Of a stretch of DNA of 42,048 nt, positions 786 to 17,832 are shown piece after piece. Source of the stretch: Laspinema sp. D2d (GTDB lineage: Bacteria; Cyanobacteriota; Cyanobacteriia; Cyanobacteriales; Laspinemataceae); NCBI RefSeq assembly GCF_025370755.1, contig NZ_JAMXFC010000047.1, positions 1 through 42,048 of the forward strand, read 5' to 3'. The notes below the pieces were generated by a model. That model worked only from the letters and a program-made list of their open reading frames with translations. It had not been told where the DNA came from and searched no databases. The position numbers and the translations under genes were made by a program. The first letter of the stretch is position 1. Each line of letters starts with the position of its first letter.

Positions 786-1224
786 AAACCGAAGCTCAAA
801 AATTTTTAGGGTGAAATGGGGAGTTCCACAAAACAGCTAAATTTTATCAGTTTAGGGCTTCACTTTAAGTCAGGTAACTAAATTTAATGATTTTTTCAAG
901 ATTTGGCCGAGTTATAAGACTTTTTTTTTAGCATGAGGAGCTATAAGGCTTCATTTATATAGGTTTTAGCTTCTAATTTTATGCGCCGACTCATAGTTGA
1001 TTAGATAAATTTATCAACACAAGTCCTGAAGAGCCGACCCCAGTTATCTCAAATCCGCTTATCAGCTAGGGAAAAAACCCCTTTTAATTGGCGCAAGTGA
1101 TGACAATACGCCCAACCGGGCGATCGCCCATCAAACAAAGACAGTTCAGCAGGGAGTTTAATAGTTCCAGTTCACCCAGTATAAGCATTTCATCCCCTTA
1201 TGACTCGCAACCCGCTAAGTAGCG
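786..1224. other. Gene-free stretch between IS debris and the ATPase-nuclease gene
   Basis: No convincing gene is seen. The left half is AT-rich. The right half holds small dyads: GCCC-AACC-GGGC around 1110-1121, and CGCTA-AG-TAGCG at 1213-1224 directly after the stop codon of the neighbouring minus-strand gene, which may help end its transcript. The only minus-strand reading frame is about 33 codons near 1187 and resembles nothing recognisable. It may be eroded IS sequence. Confidence 0.5.
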
Positions 1225-3201
1225 CTAAAAGTAAATTTCTCCACTATCTAGCTTATCCTGAAGTTTATTTTTAACGTTGTTGGTTGAACCCAACCCCTGC
1301 AATAAATCATCTAAGTTTTTATATAAAAATTTAGGGCGGCGCTGGCTAATCTTTTCAATTGTATTTTTCCTCATACCACTACCCTTAAATGCTTGTATCA
1401 GGTCATCCAAACTGGCCGTATTAATATTAATTCCAGACTTTTTGATAAGGGTTTCTGGGATTTTGGGGGTAGATTCTACCTCGGTCGGGGTCACATCTAC
1501 CGAGTTGATTTCTTTTGCAGTTTCTGGATCGGTTGCTATAACCTGGGGATGGGAAGGCACTAATACCACCGATTCTATGTGAGTTAAATTGTTAGTAATA
1601 CCGGGTTCTAGCGGTTTTAAAACTTTCGATTTATCTCCTGAATTTTGTGATTGCATTTCTGGTTCCTTCGGTAAGGGATAAAACACAATCTCAGTATTTT
1701 TAATTTTCAGTTCAAGAAGATTGGGGCAGCCCGGAGCAAATAAGTAAGCTAAATCAGGGGGAGATTTTTTTCCATAAAACCGAACGTCAGCTAACCAGGC
1801 CTTAAATGTTGTAAAGTGGCTGGTTAAAAGCTCATAGTTTTTAGCTTCACCAAAGGCTTTGGCAATTACATCGCCATTATGCCTTAATTCGGCGTAACCA
1901 TCAAAATTGTGACCCTCTAAATTCGTTGTAGTTTGTGCTATGATAAGCTTATAGCCTTGTTTACCAGAGAACCGCTTCCATTGTTGATGCCCCTGGTAAT
2001 TGAAGGGACCACTAATCGGACTTGGTGCGTTCCCTAATTGTTGACTCCATTTTTGAATACAGAGTTCTTCTAGTTTAATTCGTGACTGAAATTCAAATTG
2101 GTTAAAGGATTTATCGTGATGTTTGAAATATTTTTGATGAATTTGTAAAACTTCACTTCCATATCGCTGACAAAATTCCCTCAAACTATTAAAATCTGTT
2201 CCAGCTTTTAAGTCAATACTCTGAACCTCTTTTTTAAATTCCGGAAAATCTTTATAGCCTTGATAGGCACTATAAAGCCGGTTATCAATTTTAGCGCGAA
2301 TTTCCTCACACTCTTGGTTTCTAAATCTAACTAATCGGATTTCTCCAGGATAAACTCGACTTTTTAAAGCTGGATTCTCCTTGATGAATTTTTGGACATC
2401 ATCGGATAAACCCGAAATATACAAGCCTAATGGTAACTTTCCTTGATAGTCATCTTCAATTTGGTTAATTAAATGCCGAAAGGTATTAACGGCATCTTTG
2501 GACCTCTCACTCTGATAAAGTGAATCTAGCTCATCAATCAAGAAAAATAAGTAAAATCCTTGATTTTTAAAGTGTTGGACTATTTCTAGAAACGTTTCAA
2601 GGAGGTCACAACCTGATTCAATTAATAATTTATCAAGTTTTGTTTTAACAGCGCCACTTTTTTTGGAAGTTACAATGAGATTAACCAAGTTTAGTTCTTC
2701 AGGAAATAATTCTTCCAAGGAACGGGCCGCTGATTGCTTAAAACGAGGTTCCAGAGTTTCAATTAATGCAATCTTAAAGACTTCACTAATCAAATGCAAA
2801 TAAAATTGACGGCTAAATCCCTGTGAGCTAAAACTGGTTAATAAGTTGTTTAAATTAGTATAAATTGGGATAATGATTCTACCTGTATCGGAATGATTGG
2901 CCTCCAGTCTTTGCTGAATATAATTCAAAATAGCGGTTTTTCCACTTCCCGCGTCTGCTGCAATCATTCTAAAGATAAAGTTTTGGTGCTGAAAACAAAA
3001 GTTCAAGTCATCTTCAATTAGCTCAGTAATCGTGCTAATGGGATAACCCGATAGACTCTCAGCTTGGTTACATAGAGGCCCTTCTGAACCGGGCCGCTTT
3101 ACTTCACGGTCAATCCAGATTTCCTCAACAAGCTTTAAACCCTTTTTAACTTGAAGAAGGAAATCGGTGATAGCTTGTTTTTGTCCTGCATTTTCTGGCA
3201 T
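1225..3201 (-). CDS. AAA/P-loop ATPase fused to a PD-(D/E)XK nuclease-like domain and HhH motifs
   Basis: The 658-residue protein is not a family I can name. Seen directly: a Walker A motif DAGSGKT at residues 83-89; a Walker B motif with a run of hydrophobic residues then LIDELDSL, Asp223/Glu224, resembling Orc1/Cdc6 or KAP-type ATPases; a second domain at about 410-510 with Asp434 in FDGYAEL, then Glu452-Ala-Lys454 in GEAKNYE, matching a PD-(D/E)XK nuclease centre; a low-complexity linker at about 512-588; and a C-terminal helix-hairpin-helix block at about 590-650 (INTASLDDLIQ, then a second copy starting NLDDLLQGLG) like the DNA-binding end of ComEA. Inferred role: an ATP-driven DNA-binding nuclease in defence or repair. 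The ATG lies 16 bases after the stop of the upstream winged-helix-like gene, with GGATGAG just before it, so the two are probably one operon. IS debris flanks the 3' side. Confidence 0.75.
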   Translation of the reverse strand: MPENAGQKQAITDFLLQVKKGLKLVEEIWIDREVKRPGSEGPLCNQAESLSGYPISTITELIEDDLNFCFQHQNFIFRMIAADAGSGKTAILNYIQQRLEANHSDTGRIIIPIYTNLNNLLTSFSSQGFSRQFYLHLISEVFKIALIETLEPRFKQSAARSLEELFPEELNLVNLIVTSKKSGAVKTKLDKLLIESGCDLLETFLEIVQHFKNQGFYLFFLIDELDSLYQSERSKDAVNTFRHLINQIEDDYQGKLPLGLYISGLSDDVQKFIKENPALKSRVYPGEIRLVRFRNQECEEIRAKIDNRLYSAYQGYKDFPEFKKEVQSIDLKAGTDFNSLREFCQRYGSEVLQIHQKYFKHHDKSFNQFEFQSRIKLEELCIQKWSQQLGNAPSPISGPFNYQGHQQWKRFSGKQGYKLIIAQTTTNLEGHNFDGYAELRHNGDVIAKAFGEAKNYELLTSHFTTFKAWLADVRFYGKKSPPDLAYLFAPGCPNLLELKIKNTEIVFYPLPKEPEMQSQNSGDKSKVLKPLEPGITNNLTHIESVVLVPSHPQVIATDPETAKEINSVDVTPTEVESTPKIPETLIKKSGININTASLDDLIQAFKGSGMRKNTIEKISQRRPKFLYKNLDDLLQGLGSTNNVKNKLQDKLDSGEIYF

Positions 3202-3217
3202 AATTGCTCATCCAAAA

Positions 3218-3805
3218 CTACTCAATCCACTGAAGATTTTTATCTTCTCGTCCTTGAACTGCTGAAATTAAGTTTTCTTCCTGTAGACGCTTGTAGTATC
3301 GCTGAACCAAGTCTTCTGAGAGGTTATACTCCTGAGAAAATTTCTGGAGAATCTCTTTTTCCCGCATCACATAAGTTCCGGCCAAAGACTGACGTTTCAA
3401 TTCTTCAAAAAAGAATTTCTTGAATTGTTCCAGAAATTCTTCAAAACCTAAATCTGTCTCGTGACTGATTTTTCCCATTCTACCGAAAGAAGCCGCAAGT
3501 TTTAGGCAAGCCATGAGAGCATTCACAACTCGGCTTCCTTTGACCGTCGTGAACTCATAGTCTGTAGTTTGAAGATTTGTAACTAATGCCTCTTTTCCCG
3601 AGAGGGAAACGGTCACACGCCGCAATTTGGGTGAGTCTAAAAATTTTTGTTCAAGTAACGACTCGCAGATAGTCCCGGCTTCAGTACGATAAGACTTAGG
3701 GAGATATCTTTTCACCGTACCCTGGGTGACAGACTTCTGTTCTTCTTCGGTATAAGCAAAAGCATACAGAAGATAGAGCAACTCTCCCGTGGATAAGTTT
3801 GCCAT
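3218..3805 (-). CDS. Double winged-helix-like protein, partner of the ATPase-nuclease gene
   Basis: This protein of 195 residues is not recognised as a named family. The frame opens at 3847, but the ATG at 3805 is preferred: GGAG sits nine bases before it, and the extra 14 residues look non-native. Two regions look like winged helices. Residues about 5-75 hold helices followed by a strand pair in RRVTVSLSGKEA. Residues about 145-190 hold REKEILQKFSQEYNL, then SEDLVQRYYKRLQEENLI, typical of a recognition helix and wing. The middle is helical (FEEFLEQFKKFFFEELKRQ). There is no catalytic motif. It comes first in a two-gene unit with the ATPase-nuclease. A DNA-binding specificity or regulatory subunit is the likely role (inference). 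Confidence 0.7.
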   Translation of the reverse strand: MANLSTGELLYLLYAFAYTEEEQKSVTQGTVKRYLPKSYRTEAGTICESLLEQKFLDSPKLRRVTVSLSGKEALVTNLQTTDYEFTTVKGSRVVNALMACLKLAASFGRMGKISHETDLGFEEFLEQFKKFFFEELKRQSLAGTYVMREKEILQKFSQEYNLSEDLVQRYYKRLQEENLISAVQGREDKNLQWIE

Positions 3806-3960
3806 GAAACTAGACTCCGATGTGTATTTTAGGCTGAGACAAGCCACAACAATTGGGATTATAACAGATCAGCCAGCTTATGAGTTCCTAATCTAGCAAT
3901 CCTACATGATTTGTAACAAAGCCAGCGAGCAAGATGCGATCGCACTCTGATTTAAAACTA

Positions 3961-3990
3961 AAACCCCGGTTGTTTAAACAACCGGGGTTT
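3961..3990 (-). terminator. Perfect palindromic terminator after miaB
   Basis: A 30-base perfect inverted repeat: AAACCCCGGTTGTTT followed at once by its reverse complement. On the minus strand, after the stem, the transcript reads UUUAGUUUUAAAUC, a U-rich tail. It lies 30 bases past the miaB stop, so it probably ends miaB and insulates the downstream winged-helix/ATPase pair. By symmetry it could also stop transcription from the other side. Confidence 0.75.
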
Positions 3991-4019
3991 TCCATAACTC
4001 ACTTATGTCGTACTCGCCC

Positions 4020-5384
4020 TTAAACCAGAGCGGGTTGAGGGACTGAAATTGCTTCGCCGGATAAACTGAAGGCTCGGGATTCGGTAATCTTAACTTGGAC
4101 TAACTGTCCCTTTAACTGATTGATATCCCCAGTGAAGAAGGTGAGGCGGTTGCCTCTTGTTCTTCCCATCACTTGCGTGGGGTCTTTGGCATTCTGTTCC
4201 TCGACTAGGACCTCTTCAATTCTTCCTAGATACCGCTCCGATCGCTCGGCGGCTTTGATAGATACTAAGTGATTCAACCGTTGCAGGCGATCGCTTTTCA
4301 CCTCTTCACTCAACTGATTCTCCCACACTGCCGCTGGTGTCCCGGGACGGGGGGAATAAGCCGCAGTATTGAGCATATCAAAGCTAATTTCTTCTAACAG
4401 TTTCAGGGTGTTTTCAAACTGTGCCTCGGTTTCCCCAGGGAAGCCGACGATCGCATCGGCACTGATAGAAGCATCGGGCATATAGTGGCGAATCATATCG
4501 ATAATTCGGCGATATTTTTCATGGGTATAACCCCGCGCCATTGCCTTTAAGACTTCATTATCCCCCGATTGAAACGGGATATGAAAATGTTCGCAAACCT
4601 TCGGCAATTCCTGACAAGCTCGAATTAATCTCTCGGTGAAATAGCGGGGGTGAGAAGTGGCAAAGCGAATCCGTTCAATTCCCGGGACATCATGGACGAA
4701 ATAGAGCAAATCCGTGAGGGTATGTAAATTCCGTCCCTCCGGTGTAGTTCCCGGTAAATCTCTGCCGTAGGCGTCGATATTTTGACCGAGTAAGGTGACT
4801 TCTTTGTATCCCTGGCGTCCGAGTTCTTCCATTTCGGTGCGGATCGCTTCTGGGGTGCGGGATTGTTCGATACCACGCACCGAGGGTACAATGCAATAGG
4901 TGCAGCGTTCGTTACAGCCGTAAATTACGTTCACCCAGGCGGTAACTTGGCTTTCCCGGCGCGGTTTGGTGATATCCTCCATGATATGCACCGCCTCGGT
5001 CGCTACCACTTGGTTCCCGGCGAACACCTGTTCGAGCAAATCCTCTAGGCGGTTGGCGTGTTGGGGACCCATGACCATATCTAATTCGGGGACCCGTCGC
5101 AGTAGCGCTTCTCCTTCCTGTTGTGCCACGCAACCGGCAACGATGAGGGTGAGGTTGGGTTGTTGGAGTTTGCGTTTCGCTTGCCTGCCTAGGTAGGAAT
5201 AAACTTTGTGCTCGGCATTATCCCGAATTGAGCAGGTATTGTAGAGGATGAGGTCGGCTTGGTTGGGGTCTTCGGAAAACTGGAACCCCATATTTTCCAG
5301 GATACCTGCCATGCGTTCGGAGTCAGCTTTGTTCATCTGACAGCCGAAGGTGGTAATGTGGTAACGACGAGGAATAGAGGACAT
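4020..5384 (-). CDS. miaB: tRNA-2-methylthio-N6-dimethylallyladenosine synthase
   Basis: Radical-SAM enzyme that adds a methylthio group to i6A37 of tRNAs reading UNN codons, helping codon pairing. All hallmarks are present in 454 residues, the usual length. The N-terminal UPF0004 domain carries three Cys for the auxiliary Fe-S cluster (C15 in [13 protein letters not shown]51 in [13 protein letters not shown]85 in [10 protein letters not shown]). The radical-SAM CxxxCxxC motif is C157/C161/C164 in [19 protein letters not shown]-terminal TRAM RNA-binding domain spans about 385-445. The ATG at 5384 begins [15 protein letters not shown], which fits the family. Transcribed alone, ending in the palindromic terminator. 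MtaB or RimO are unlikely because of the CQMNKADSE and CNERCTYC forms. Confidence 0.96.
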
Positions 5385-7294: not shown

Positions 7295-9757
7295 CTAGTT
7301 TCCGCGTAGCATTCGTCCTTGGATGACTTTCCAGGTAGCTGGGGTGACTTCCGAGGCCGCATCATAGCAGCGAACAATCAACCCATTGGCATAAAAATAA
7401 TCCCCTAATGCCTGATTTTCTTCGGGGGATAATTTCAAGCGATCGCTGGACAAATTGAGGGCGGTTAGCCAACTGTGACGAATGCGATCGCGAAACTCAT
7501 AATGCACTTGATAGGCCGCATTGGTATCAGGAATCTCCGTTTGCAGAGCTTGTAAAGTGGCGATCGCCTCCTGACAATCTTTAAAAATTCCCACCTCTTC
7601 TACCAATCGAGTTAGAATACTAACAAAGGCCAAATCTCGGGCGCGATCCAAAGCGAAATTGCTGGGAGCATCGAGTAAACAATCGAGGTCCAGAACCAGT
7701 TGACGAGCGCGATCGCGGGCCAATTTTCGGGCCAGTTCCCGCGTCAATTCTCCAGCGGATTTTTCCACATCTAAGGGGCGATCGCAAATAAACGCCAAAT
7801 TTTTGGTAAAATCCTCTGCTAACCGGCCTGCACGAGTAATCAGTTCAGATAAATTGAACCCCAAAATTTCGCAGAGATTCAACGCCACATTTTCAGGAGA
7901 TTCTACTTCCCCCCGCTGCTTCAATTGGCGAGCAAGGCTATCCGTAGAATAGGGACTTTCCGCCGATAAATCCGGTTCTAAGGTGGCATTTAAGGCCCGC
8001 ACTAGAAACAGCGCTGCCGTCCTTTTCGCCGCCAGGGAAAGCGTCCCCCTATCGTCCTCCGTGGATTCAGAAGCCCATCGCAAGAGCGATCGCAATTTAC
8101 TGGTTTTCAGGTACTTTTGAGCCGATGATTCCATTAAAATCAGTAATTTATCCGCTGTGGGGTAGCGAATCCCTGACACAAATAAAAAGATTTCTTGCCA
8201 ATGGCGCAAGGTCATATTTTTCGCGGAAATTTGAGCGGCTAAATAATAGGTATCGATATAAATAGCCGTAAAATATTCTTGCCAAGTTACTTGAGTAAAG
8301 GCAAAGCGGTCCGGCCCAATTTGCAGCAGTAAACCGGACCGCAACGCGATTTTTTCCAGCATTTTCTCAACCCGATAGCGGTTCTCCGCAATGGTAGGAG
8401 TTAAAGATACTGCTGGATTTTTATTCGAGGGATGATTGGCTTTTTCATTTGGATTCGTGGGAACTATTGTCAAGGAGTTTTTACGCGCTGAGGTTAACGT
8501 AGTCGAATTTTTATTGGTATTGTCCGTGGCATTAGAATTAACATTAGTGGGTACAGAAAAGGGAAAATACTCATCTTTATGTAAATCCAACAAATGCACA
8601 GGAATCCGACTGCTTAAATCGGCCCCAGAAAACACCGAACGTTCAGCGATCGCACTTCGGAAGGCTAATTGAGCCAGCCACAATTTTGCCAATTCCCGAT
8701 TCATTTCCAGACTCGGCGACACTTCCGGAGTCGTGGCAATATTTCCCGCAGCTTCTAGTAAAATGTGAGAAGTTCGTAGATAAAGCGTTGCCCGATTTTC
8801 CGGTAGAGCGTGAGTCCGGTCATACACCAAGCAGAGCAAGGTAAGTGAGAGGGGGAATTCAGCCAAAGAGCGGGCGTGAGCATTTTCGGGGCGTTCTAAA
8901 TCCGCCCGGAGTAAGTCACCACTGGGGGTTGTAGCAGACGGAGTGTTATACCATTGTCGGATCAAACTCGCCTGTTGTCCCTCGTCTAACGGCGCGATCG
9001 CCACCGGATGAAAACTGCGCCAGTGATGGTTAACAACCCCGGGTCGGGAACAAGCTATATATCTATTTTTGGGATAAGTTTGTATAAACCCTTCCAGACG
9101 AGCGATCGCCTCAGCCATCACAAACGAGGGAATGGTATGCAAATCATCCAGTAAAATTAAGCATCGCCCTTGAGCCAGTGCCTCTCGAACCAGTCGATCC
9201 GCAGCGGGAAAACTACAGCGCCGAAACTCATCCGCGATCGCCGTTTCAATTTCCCCTTCCCCACCACTCAAGGTTTTAACTGGAATAAACACCGGAATAT
9301 ACCCGCGCCGAACCACCCCCCCGAACCGAGTTCCCCGTAGGGCTTCTAGGCCGATTTTCCTCAGTAAGACAGACTTTCCCGAACCCGGGGAACCCCAGAT
9401 CATCACCCCATCCCGTTCATTGATCACCGCGATCGCAGATTTAGGAGTAGACTCCACTGGGGAAGCATTCGGGTTCGTCATTCCTGGCTCATCCATCTCC
9501 CTCACCTGCATATCCACATAGAGAGATTCTAACGGCACGGGATCGCGAGTTCCTAACAAATCAATCGTCGCATACCGTTGGAGATAGAGGTTGACATAAG
9601 TCTCCGAAGCAGCAGCGATCGCCTCCTTCGTTTTTTTATCCGGAGTTCGGGGAAAAATACCCAATAATTTGCTCTTATCTTCCAACAGCGTATCTGTTGC
9701 AATTTGAGCAATATTGGTAGCGGCATCTGCAACAATCGTTTTTCGTGGAATCATCAT
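7295..9757 (-). CDS. NACHT-domain STAND NTPase with NCH2-like C-terminus
   Basis: An 820-residue signalling-type NTPase. The N-terminal helical region (1-105) has no recognised enzymatic effector. The NACHT core shows Walker A GSPGSGKS at 122-129, Walker B LILLDDLHTI at 201-209 (Asp204/Asp205) and the sensor-like strand YIACSRPG at 233-240. A winged-helix/helical part follows, interrupted by an Asn/Thr-rich insert at about 401-455 that looks disordered, then FTQVTWQEYFTAIYI typical of the NACHT arm. The C-terminus, about 750-820, reads like the NCH2 domain of cyanobacterial NACHT proteins (LSPEENQALGDYFYANGLIV). Such proteins act as NLR-like sensors, some in phage defence; that role is inferred. 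Two tandem ATGs mark the start, with no clear ribosome site. A perfect dyad lies 16 bases upstream. Confidence 0.85.
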   Translation of the reverse strand: MMIPRKTIVADAATNIAQIATDTLLEDKSKLLGIFPRTPDKKTKEAIAAASETYVNLYLQRYATIDLLGTRDPVPLESLYVDMQVREMDEPGMTNPNASPVESTPKSAIAVINERDGVMIWGSPGSGKSVLLRKIGLEALRGTRFGGVVRRGYIPVFIPVKTLSGGEGEIETAIADEFRRCSFPAADRLVREALAQGRCLILLDDLHTIPSFVMAEAIARLEGFIQTYPKNRYIACSRPGVVNHHWRSFHPVAIAPLDEGQQASLIRQWYNTPSATTPSGDLLRADLERPENAHARSLAEFPLSLTLLCLVYDRTHALPENRATLYLRTSHILLEAAGNIATTPEVSPSLEMNRELAKLWLAQLAFRSAIAERSVFSGADLSSRIPVHLLDLHKDEYFPFSVPTNVNSNATDNTNKNSTTLTSARKNSLTIVPTNPNEKANHPSNKNPAVSLTPTIAENRYRVEKMLEKIALRSGLLLQIGPDRFAFTQVTWQEYFTAIYIDTYYLAAQISAKNMTLRHWQEIFLFVSGIRYPTADKLLILMESSAQKYLKTSKLRSLLRWASESTEDDRGTLSLAAKRTAALFLVRALNATLEPDLSAESPYSTDSLARQLKQRGEVESPENVALNLCEILGFNLSELITRAGRLAEDFTKNLAFICDRPLDVEKSAGELTRELARKLARDRARQLVLDLDCLLDAPSNFALDRARDLAFVSILTRLVEEVGIFKDCQEAIATLQALQTEIPDTNAAYQVHYEFRDRIRHSWLTALNLSSDRLKLSPEENQALGDYFYANGLIVRCYDAASEVTPATWKVIQGRMLRGN

Positions 9758-16666: not shown

Positions 16667-17041
16667 ATGTCCTCAATCATTGCCTTAATCGCCCACGATC
16701 GCAAAAAAGATGAAATGGTCGCCTTTGCTCAAAAGCATTCGGCGATCCTGTCCCACTATCATCTGATTGCTACCGGAACCACCGGGGCCCGAATTAATCA
16801 AGCGACGGGACTCGAAGTCCAACTCATGCAATCAGGACCAATGGGGGGAGATTCTCAAATTGCCGCCCAAGTCGTCGCCGGGGGGGTGAAAGCGGTGATT
16901 TTCCTCATTGATCCCCTGTTTGCTCAACCCCACGAACCGGATATTCAAGCACTCTTGCGAATTTGCAACCTACAGCAAACCCCCCTGGCAACCAATCTTG
17001 CCACCGCAGAAGCAATCATGCCCAGTTTGTCCCCAGCTTGA
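16667..17041 (+). CDS. mgsA: Methylglyoxal synthase
   Basis: Converts dihydroxyacetone phosphate to methylglyoxal and phosphate, a bypass that relieves sugar-phosphate overload. Compared with the E. coli enzyme the active-site set is present: His10 in LIAHDRKK, the phosphate loop ATGTTGARI, Asp62 in SGPMGGDSQI, Asp82 and His89/Asp92 in FLIDPLFAQPHEPDIQ. The 124 residues end just after TNLATAEAIMPS, so the roughly 20-residue C-terminal helix of the E. coli enzyme is lacking. An upstream extension to 16598 overlaps nagA and is not family-like; the ATG at 16667 is preferred. Co-directional with nagA (52-base gap) and probably co-transcribed. Confidence 0.92.
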   Translation: MSSIIALIAHDRKKDEMVAFAQKHSAILSHYHLIATGTTGARINQATGLEVQLMQSGPMGGDSQIAAQVVAGGVKAVIFLIDPLFAQPHEPDIQALLRICNLQQTPLATNLATAEAIMPSLSPA

Positions 17042-17145
17042 TCCCCTGAACCGGCAACGGGAAAAGGTCGGGGACTGGCTACTTTTTCATTGGAAAGAAT
17101 GTGGTAAGTTAAGAGGCTGGACACAACAGAGCAACAGGCATTCCA

Positions 17146-17832
17146 ATGAACGCAGTAGATGATAAAACCGTAGTCAGGGAGTATTTTAATGCCACCGGGT
17201 TCGATCGCTGGCGCAGAATTTACGGCACGGAAGAGGTCAATAAAGTTCAGCTTGATATCCGCAAGGGACATCAGCAAACGGTCGATCGCGTCTTGGCGTG
17301 GCTACAAGCCGACGGCAATTTGCAGGGATTATCAATTTGTGATGCAGGTTGCGGCGTCGGTAGTCTGAGTATTCCCCTCGGACAAGCCGGTGCAATGGTC
17401 TATGGCAGCGATATTTCTGAAAAAATGGTGGAGGAAGCATACCAACGGGCAAAAACCCTGTTCGGTCCCACCCATACGATTTCTTTTGCAGCCCAGGATT
17501 TAGAATCGTTAAGTGGGCGCTATCATACGGTGATTTGTCTGGATGTGCTGATTCACTATCCCCAGGATAAGGCGGCAGAGATGATCGGCCATCTGTGTTC
17601 TTTGGCACAGGAACGGTTAATTCTGAGTTTTGCCCCGAAAACTGTCGCCCTGAGTGCTTTGAAGAAGGTGGGGGAATTATTCCCCGGTCCGAGTAAAACC
17701 ACTCGGGCGTATCAACATCGAGAAGCGGATATTATCGCGATTTTGGCTAAAAATGGCTTTGCGATCGCTCGCCAAGAAATGACTAGCACGCGGTTTTATT
17801 ATTCTCGCCTCCTGGAAGCAATTCGGCACTAA
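17146..17832 (+). CDS. chlM: Magnesium-protoporphyrin IX O-methyltransferase
   Basis: Uses SAM to methylate the 13-propionate of Mg-protoporphyrin IX, the step after Mg-chelatase in chlorophyll synthesis. The N-terminal REYFNATGFDRWRRIYG (about 11-27) is diagnostic of BchM/ChlM. The SAM loop is DAGCGVGSL at 66-74, with an acidic SDISEKM afterwards, and the C-terminal block LFPGPSKTTRAYQHREADI fits the family. Length 228 is normal. The ATG at 17146 begins MNAVDDKTVVREYF. It lies 104 bases after mgsA. Co-transcription is possible but the pathways are unrelated. Confidence 0.96.
   Translation: MNAVDDKTVVREYFNATGFDRWRRIYGTEEVNKVQLDIRKGHQQTVDRVLAWLQADGNLQGLSICDAGCGVGSLSIPLGQAGAMVYGSDISEKMVEEAYQRAKTLFGPTHTISFAAQDLESLSGRYHTVICLDVLIHYPQDKAAEMIGHLCSLAQERLILSFAPKTVALSALKKVGELFPGPSKTTRAYQHREADIIAILAKNGFAIARQEMTSTRFYYSRLLEAIRH

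Follow-up and report, generated by a model that had tools for sequence, protein, structure and literature searches.

Operons that combine an ORC/Cdc6 ATPase, an REase and a multi-wHTH protein have been predicted to be counter-invader (defence) systems directed at selfish elements, and they are found in mobile neighbourhoods (PMC10853773). HerA/FtsK is often part of the core of these operons, as is an inactive REase that sits between the AAA+ core and an ORC-type wHTH (PMC10853773). CDC6/ORC NTPases with a C-terminal REase are likewise mentioned in the same paper. Its main text contains none of the words cyanobacteria, cyanobacterial, Nostoc, HhH, helix-hairpin-helix and WD40, and a search of the open-licence literature found no description of the gene family considered below. 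That family is represented by two adjacent genes, here called A and B, in a 42,048-nucleotide stretch of DNA (‘the window’) from the 6.6-Mb genome of Laspinema sp. D2d. The preliminary description of the pair called it a candidate undescribed system, a term that can stand for the family; it does not stand for the kind of system, since the make-up of ORC-like ATPase, REase and multi-wHTH protein had already been predicted as defence (PMC10853773).

Both genes lie on the minus strand. Gene A (3218..3805), the first gene of the unit, encodes a wHTH protein of 195 aa, as defined by its ORF and an AlphaFold2 model; its start is the ATG at 3805, the ORF as listed opening at a GTG at 3847. Gene B (1225..3201) encodes an ATPase-nuclease-HhH protein of 658 aa, as defined by its ORF, an alignment of 11 proteins and an AlphaFold2 model. 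The two reading frames and the gap of 16 bases between them were confirmed as first described, and the pairing passed the test that had been proposed for it, namely conservation across genomes: among 388 Cyanobacteriia genomes, 12 yielded B and 11 yielded A, all 11 with A adjoining B, whilst the twelfth B-bearing genome holds a B fragment only, at a contig end. A profile scan of a genome contig collection gave 38 loci, the titles of which are all cyanobacterial; the scan relied on two short peptide patterns and could thus overlook divergent relatives outside the cyanobacteria. Unlike the profile scan, a single-protein scan of the same collection found nothing. Removal of 7 duplicates left 42 unique loci, and in 36 of these A immediately precedes B; A is also just ahead of B in all 36 full-length copies that were aligned. 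In four loci without A, B is partial and at a contig end (L042, L064, L078 and L074, in the last within 72 bp of the end), and two more are remnants (L079, L080) whose neighbourhoods share gene families with intact copies; in L077, B is split over two ORFs. The gap between A and B is 2–5 nt in the loci, the exceptions being the window and its closest relative, the copy in Oscillatoria sp. HE19RPO (L043; B 82% identical), both with 16 nt. Across 11 pairs, identity ranges from 30 to 40% for A and from 34 to 38% for B. Most of the named carriers belong to what we take to be filamentous genera, with Acaryochloris as an exception. No gene cluster besides A and B is present in more than 9 of the 42 unique loci, and no constant third gene was found. 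A and B are a real two-gene unit.

The ATPase of B has been placed at residues 76–300 (2302..2976, minus strand) and is probably ORC/Cdc6-like, of the AAA+ class, on the basis of matches to KAP_NTPase and AAA_16, of structural comparison and of invariant residues. It carries both a Walker A motif (GSGKT, residues 85–89) and a Walker B motif (LIDELD, 221–226), as looked for in an ORC/Cdc6-type AAA+ ATPase; G85, G87, K88, T89, D223 and D226 are invariant in all 36 full-length copies aligned, and E224 is kept in 35, with D in the remaining copy. In Pfam, KAP_NTPase matched over its cut-off (3.1e-5), alongside AAA_16 (9.5e-5), and BrxC_BrxD fell slightly under its cut-off (1.1e-4). The best NCBIfam matches, headed by an Sll1717-family ATPase (4.9e-6), were all under cut-off; DS41_1_antiphage was far under (0.042). 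Sequence-only PDB searches gave weak matches. The AlphaFold2 model of B (pLDDT 79, pTM 0.55) was compared with known structures using Foldseek, and ORC/Cdc6 proteins came first, the best being Aeropyrum ORC2 at E 2.0e-6 with a low TM-score (0.26 by query, 0.40 by target); the ORC/Cdc6 chains in the top ten ranged from 0.2 to 0.26 by query and from 0.33 to 0.42 by target. After archaeal ORC2/ORC1 came ORC subunits, TnsC (8fcu_Q, 3.5e-4), RdrA and BrxC (3.2e-3), the TM-scores being low throughout. The above-cut-off KAP_NTPase match and a Foldseek list headed by ORC/Cdc6 bear out the P-loop ATPase noted in the preliminary description.

Residues 401–512 of B (1666..2001, minus strand) are a probable PD-(D/E)XK nuclease, as had been suggested from the letters of the sequence. 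The candidate motif consists of D434 and E452-A-K454, and D434, E452 and K454 are invariant in the 36 full-length copies aligned. One of the two scan patterns includes GEAKNY and thus partly builds this invariance in by selection; ten relatives fetched without that pattern, through the Cyanobacteriia genome search, also carry the three residues. In the model, the motif is surrounded by strands 435–441 and 444–453, helix 456–472 and strand 484–489: D434 stands just ahead of the first strand and E452 ends the second, after which come the helix and the last strand, an arrangement that fits a D...(D/E)xK motif spread over two adjacent strands in an alpha-beta fold. This is the usual order of elements in PD-(D/E)XK domains. 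Pfam and PDB sequence searches with the segment gave no relevant match, and ‘nuclease’ is therefore a motif-and-model assignment. The C-terminal tail (residues 587–658; 1228..1443, minus strand) resembles ComEA-type helix-hairpin-helix domains, and the HhH motifs claimed for it are borne out through weak matches, all under cut-off, to T2SSK (2.7e-3), ComEA TIGR00426 (4.2e-3) and, in one of the 11 aligned B members, HHH_3 (5.3e-3). Annexins were the best PDB matches of the C-terminal profile (5.2e-4, about 25–32 profile positions); they were put down to a short stretch of likeness, given that the tail is matched by ComEA-type HhH models too. In one copy (L072), WD40 repeats stand in place of the HhH tail, within one open frame.

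The two winged-helix-like regions reported for the small protein are recovered in the structure that AlphaFold2 predicts for A (pLDDT 85, pTM 0.54), where two long helices connect two wHTH-type units. In Foldseek it came closest to regulators of the PadR and MarR families, every match being weak (best E 8.5e-3); A could accordingly be a plain regulator, a point against an immune reading of the pair. No PADLOC model matched A up to E 1, and those matching B (NERD+UvrD, 1.4e-4; mad8, 4.1e-3) did so in the ATPase part alone. Neither A nor B is thus convincingly matched by any PADLOC or NCBIfam model, which supports the earlier statement that the pair does not match a named system.

The unit occupies a site that differs between close relatives. 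The block carrying the pair (1036..3943) is shared with a congener locus (L158) at 86.8% identity by blastn, and next to it a perfect palindrome of 16+16 nt (3960..3991), found by repeat search and flank alignment, marks the start of the flank shared with congeners, in which homology starts at 3960 or at 3975–3976; the palindrome looks like the terminator of miaB. At this miaB-side site, congeners carry a STAND-type ATPase gene with a WD40 gene (G634), a STAND-type ATPase gene (G637) or a DUF4365 gene (G635). The congener G633 has A, B and a Uma2 gene in a stretch of 4.36 kb that lies between an ABC-F-type gene and a fatty-acid desaturase gene, and in G632 the matching flanks are only 21 bp apart. 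The pair is present in two of eight genomes of the genus, the window's own counted. It is accessory, patchy and at a variable site, and the housekeeping role that the preliminary description had named as a refutation is not seen in this distribution (12/388 genomes; 2/8 of the genus).

Comparison of the window with G633 gave dN/dS values of 0.19 for A, 0.28 for B and 0.03 for miaB, at dS values of 0.23, 0.37 and 0.30, respectively; A and B are under purifying selection. Within B, the two lowest segments are residues 301–400 (0.12) and the nuclease-like residues 401–512 (0.19), and the linker 513–586 reaches 0.62. Trees of A and B, with 36 rows each, agree on one seven-row group (100/100 and 100/99) and on many small groups. 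The window and L043 form a long branch in both; the B tree places the two with the seven-row group (9 rows, 100/99) and, unlike it, the A tree places them beside Okeania and Trichodesmium (90/70), a mismatch that may be long-branch error or partner exchange. As the A and B of the window are placed differently, the two genes need not always travel as a pair. Nostoc mirabile has two copies (L049, L053) from different groups, and those of Dolichospermum fall with Adonisia instead of Nostoc, which suggests horizontal transfer of the pair.

The insertion-sequence debris reported beside the pair was confirmed as a DDE_3 transposase fragment at 134–439 of the window (8.7e-12). On the other side, 3.5 kb from the pair, the window encodes a NACHT-NCH2 protein (7295–9757). 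A few copies adjoin restriction-modification genes. Single neighbours that speak for defence are a DNA cytosine methyltransferase encoded about 190 bp away from B in the locus L032, and an HKD/Snf2-type helicase near L053. Linkage to defence islands, put forward beforehand as a check, did not emerge from a comparison with PADLOC models. The neighbour set comprised 241 of 285 proteins (135 + 106) of 130–1100 aa within 6.5 kb, 44 having been left out by hand (mostly neighbours that recur between syntenic loci, with L077 and L078 omitted entirely), and the control set comprised 139 of the 164 proteins encoded in 17 regions taken from three genomes. At E 1e-12, 95 and 74 PADLOC families were matched in the two neighbour sets (135 and 106 proteins) and 42 in the control set, and PADLOC matches were not clearly commoner near the pair (241 neighbour vs 139 control proteins). 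No enrichment is claimed, because many PADLOC models overlap (methyltransferases, kinases), because the comparison covers 25 listed families per set, and because the generic matches mad3, PDC-S03 and PD-T4-6 are, among the matches listed, present in the control set too. Two neighbour proteins have mad8 matches.

A related but differently built system came to light when the A profile was searched in 386 Cyanobacteriota genomes. It matched in 23 of them, strongly in seven (canonical A) and weakly in 18 (E from 4.2e-10 to 4.7e-4), both kinds of match occurring in two genomes. Each of the 18 weak A-like matches (L104–L120 and L121, which is the same locus as L048) has for neighbours an ATPase gene and a DUF1802 gene like those of L048; L106 and L113 have the ATPase gene broken in two. 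The family names are taken from L048 alone, where AAA_16 (4.5e-9) and DUF1802 (1.2e-25) matched and Mrr_cat (7.2e-3) was under cut-off. Profiles of the wHTH protein, ATPase and DUF1802 protein were built from 14, 13 and 14 of the 18 loci, respectively. The wHTH proteins of the two systems match profile-to-profile (probability 97.7, E 1.7e-12), the match between the ATPases is confined to 83 columns around Walker B (probability 83, E 8.7e-6), and the comparison of the nuclease part of B with the DUF1802 protein gave no alignment. The DUF1802 proteins have a nuclease-like motif of their own, with D294 and E306-C-K308 kept in 14/14. The split system shares with A–B a homologous wHTH protein accompanied by an ATPase, and differs in that ATPase and nuclease-like part are encoded by separate genes. 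The L048 locus holds the two systems less than 10 kb apart in all, separated by genes for a type II restriction enzyme and a methyltransferase. It is tempting, though at slightly less than even confidence, to regard the two as members of one undescribed immune superfamily of mainly filamentous cyanobacteria, in which a wHTH partner and a swappable tail would direct an ORC-like ATPase and so let a nuclease loose on DNA of foreign or host origin. If its defence role is confirmed, the pair would constitute a native DNA-directed defence for cyanobacteria, bloom formers and nitrogen fixers included, that is absent from the PADLOC library, and the fused and split architectures would give insight into the control of nucleases by ORC-like ATPases.

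On balance, we are inclined to see A and B as one DNA-targeting conflict (immune) system of cyanobacteria, an ATPase-driven nuclease with a recognition or loading subunit. B would be an ORC/Cdc6-type AAA+ ATPase held on DNA, with ATP, by its HhH tail and by A, and this holding would bring the PD-(D/E)XK domain into action, so that DNA judged foreign would be cut. A, co-produced with B, would be the recognition or loading subunit, and the exchangeable C-terminal tail (HhH, or WD40 in one copy) may help to set what is sensed. We infer the DNA cutting, the A–B complex and phage or other foreign DNA as the target. The architecture, the sporadic presence and the use of the variable site by STAND and WD40 genes as well are points for defence, and the conserved pairing, the invariant catalytic residues, the purifying selection and the split relative likewise favour this reading. 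Counting against it are the low TM-scores, a nuclease domain assigned by motif and model, the limited ATPase match between the two systems, the differing tree positions of the window's A and B, PADLOC matches not clearly commoner near the pair than in the control, and the plasmid, phage and viral-contig collections, where no relative was found. The same gene order could also belong to a toxin-antitoxin-like or abortive unit, with A as repressor and antitoxin and B as a self-directed nuclease freed once A is displaced or inactivated: a small HTH gene lies just ahead of a nuclease-like gene, by 2–5 nt in nearly all copies, the top structural matches of A are the regulator families PadR and MarR, and there are broken or decayed copies (L077, L079, L080). 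We consider this unlikely, as B is large and its ATPase is intact in 36/36 copies; a large protein with an intact ATPase is unusual for a simple toxin. Nor is an operator seen in the window, because the sole inverted repeat (arms of at least 8 nt, within 60 nt) in 3700–4030 is the miaB-side palindrome. The similar identity ranges of A and B across the 11 pairs decide nothing on this point.

The presence of TnsC among the Foldseek matches (8fcu_Q) and the insertion-sequence debris by the window copy raise another reading, in which the pair is an accessory of a mobile element and B a TnsC/TnsA-kind ATPase-nuclease aiding transposition or integration. Transposase- or integrase-like clusters, read from first 60 residues, are indeed common to L035/L038, L033/L036 and L052/L053, but in a check for Tn7-like elements no such cluster was found in three or more loci (judged on first 60 residues, where unrelated insertion sequences escape clustering), and no relative was found in plasmid, phage and viral-contig collections; this role is very improbable. 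The weak resemblance of the HhH tail to ComEA, together with an ORC-like ATPase, would fit a housekeeping protein of DNA repair or competence that processes damaged or incoming DNA, but the variable insertion site, the few genomes concerned (12/388, and 2/8 of the genus) and a protein evolution faster than that of miaB make such a function very improbable too.

Several systems already described come close to A–B. With BREX, B shares a near-cut-off match to BrxC_BrxD in Pfam and BrxC among its Foldseek matches; it differs in having no constant neighbour but A, the commonest other cluster being present in at most nine of the 42 unique loci, and constant BREX neighbours (PglX, PglZ and others) were not found among the neighbour clusters of those loci. 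SspB–SspC of the Ssp phosphorothioate system also join a multi-wHTH protein to an ORC/Cdc6-type ATPase (PMC10853773); A–B is set apart by description, its nuclease-like domain being fused to the ATPase and no third gene being constant. Crinkler-type NTPase-REase effectors and their prokaryotic relatives resemble B in carrying a CDC6/ORC-clade NTPase and a C-terminal REase in one protein (PMC10853773); again by description, A–B differs in its constant wHTH partner gene and its HhH or WD40 tail. The nearest of the described kinds is that of the predicted ORC/Cdc6, REase and wHTH operons, which, compared by architecture, have an ORC-like ATPase, an REase and a separate wHTH protein in common with A–B; they differ in that HerA/FtsK and an inserted inactive REase often belong to their core (PMC10853773), while no third gene was found to be constant here. 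The small size of the unit (two genes, less than 3 kb) makes direct testing in a laboratory host feasible. The pair probably acts in DNA-cutting defence, a function that we infer, and it is best read as a cyanobacterial variant of conflict systems of the predicted ORC-ATPase/REase/multi-wHTH type.

In the window, the two-gene pair (gene A, encoding two winged-helix-like units, and gene B, encoding an ATPase-nuclease-like-HhH protein; 1225-3805) lies 3.5 kb from a reverse-strand gene (7295-9757) whose 820-aa NACHT product matches the NCH2 C-terminal domain (1.7e-12) and is predicted to be a STAND-type immune protein. A DDE_3 transposase fragment is located near the contig start (134-439, forward strand), and the edge of the block carrying the pair is occupied by a short dispersed repeat (about 3890-3947), a stretch with many 40-60 bp matches in the related genomes searched. 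The miaB-side site, which in the window holds the pair next to a flank shared with congeners, has been found in congeners to hold a STAND-type ATPase gene (loci L154, 4783-8912, and L156, 7847-9628), with an adjoining WD40 gene in L154.

The positions of the window's A and B proteins disagree between their two trees, which may reflect partner exchange or long-branch error. Copies of B also vary: in one, a single ORF, WD40 repeats replace the HhH tail (L072, 8001-10451), whilst L057 holds the full pair together with a second, partial B (16850-17797) that runs into a masked or unknown stretch.

An A-like winged-helix protein is also encoded in a sister system, alongside an ATPase and a DUF1802 protein on separate genes (L048, 174-4435; L104-L121). 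Searching the open-licence literature for ‘DUF1802’ returned nothing beyond seemingly unrelated work. All three genes were found together in 18 of 18 loci, and at one locus (L104, 2717-7386) the winged-helix gene is flanked by two ATPase genes.
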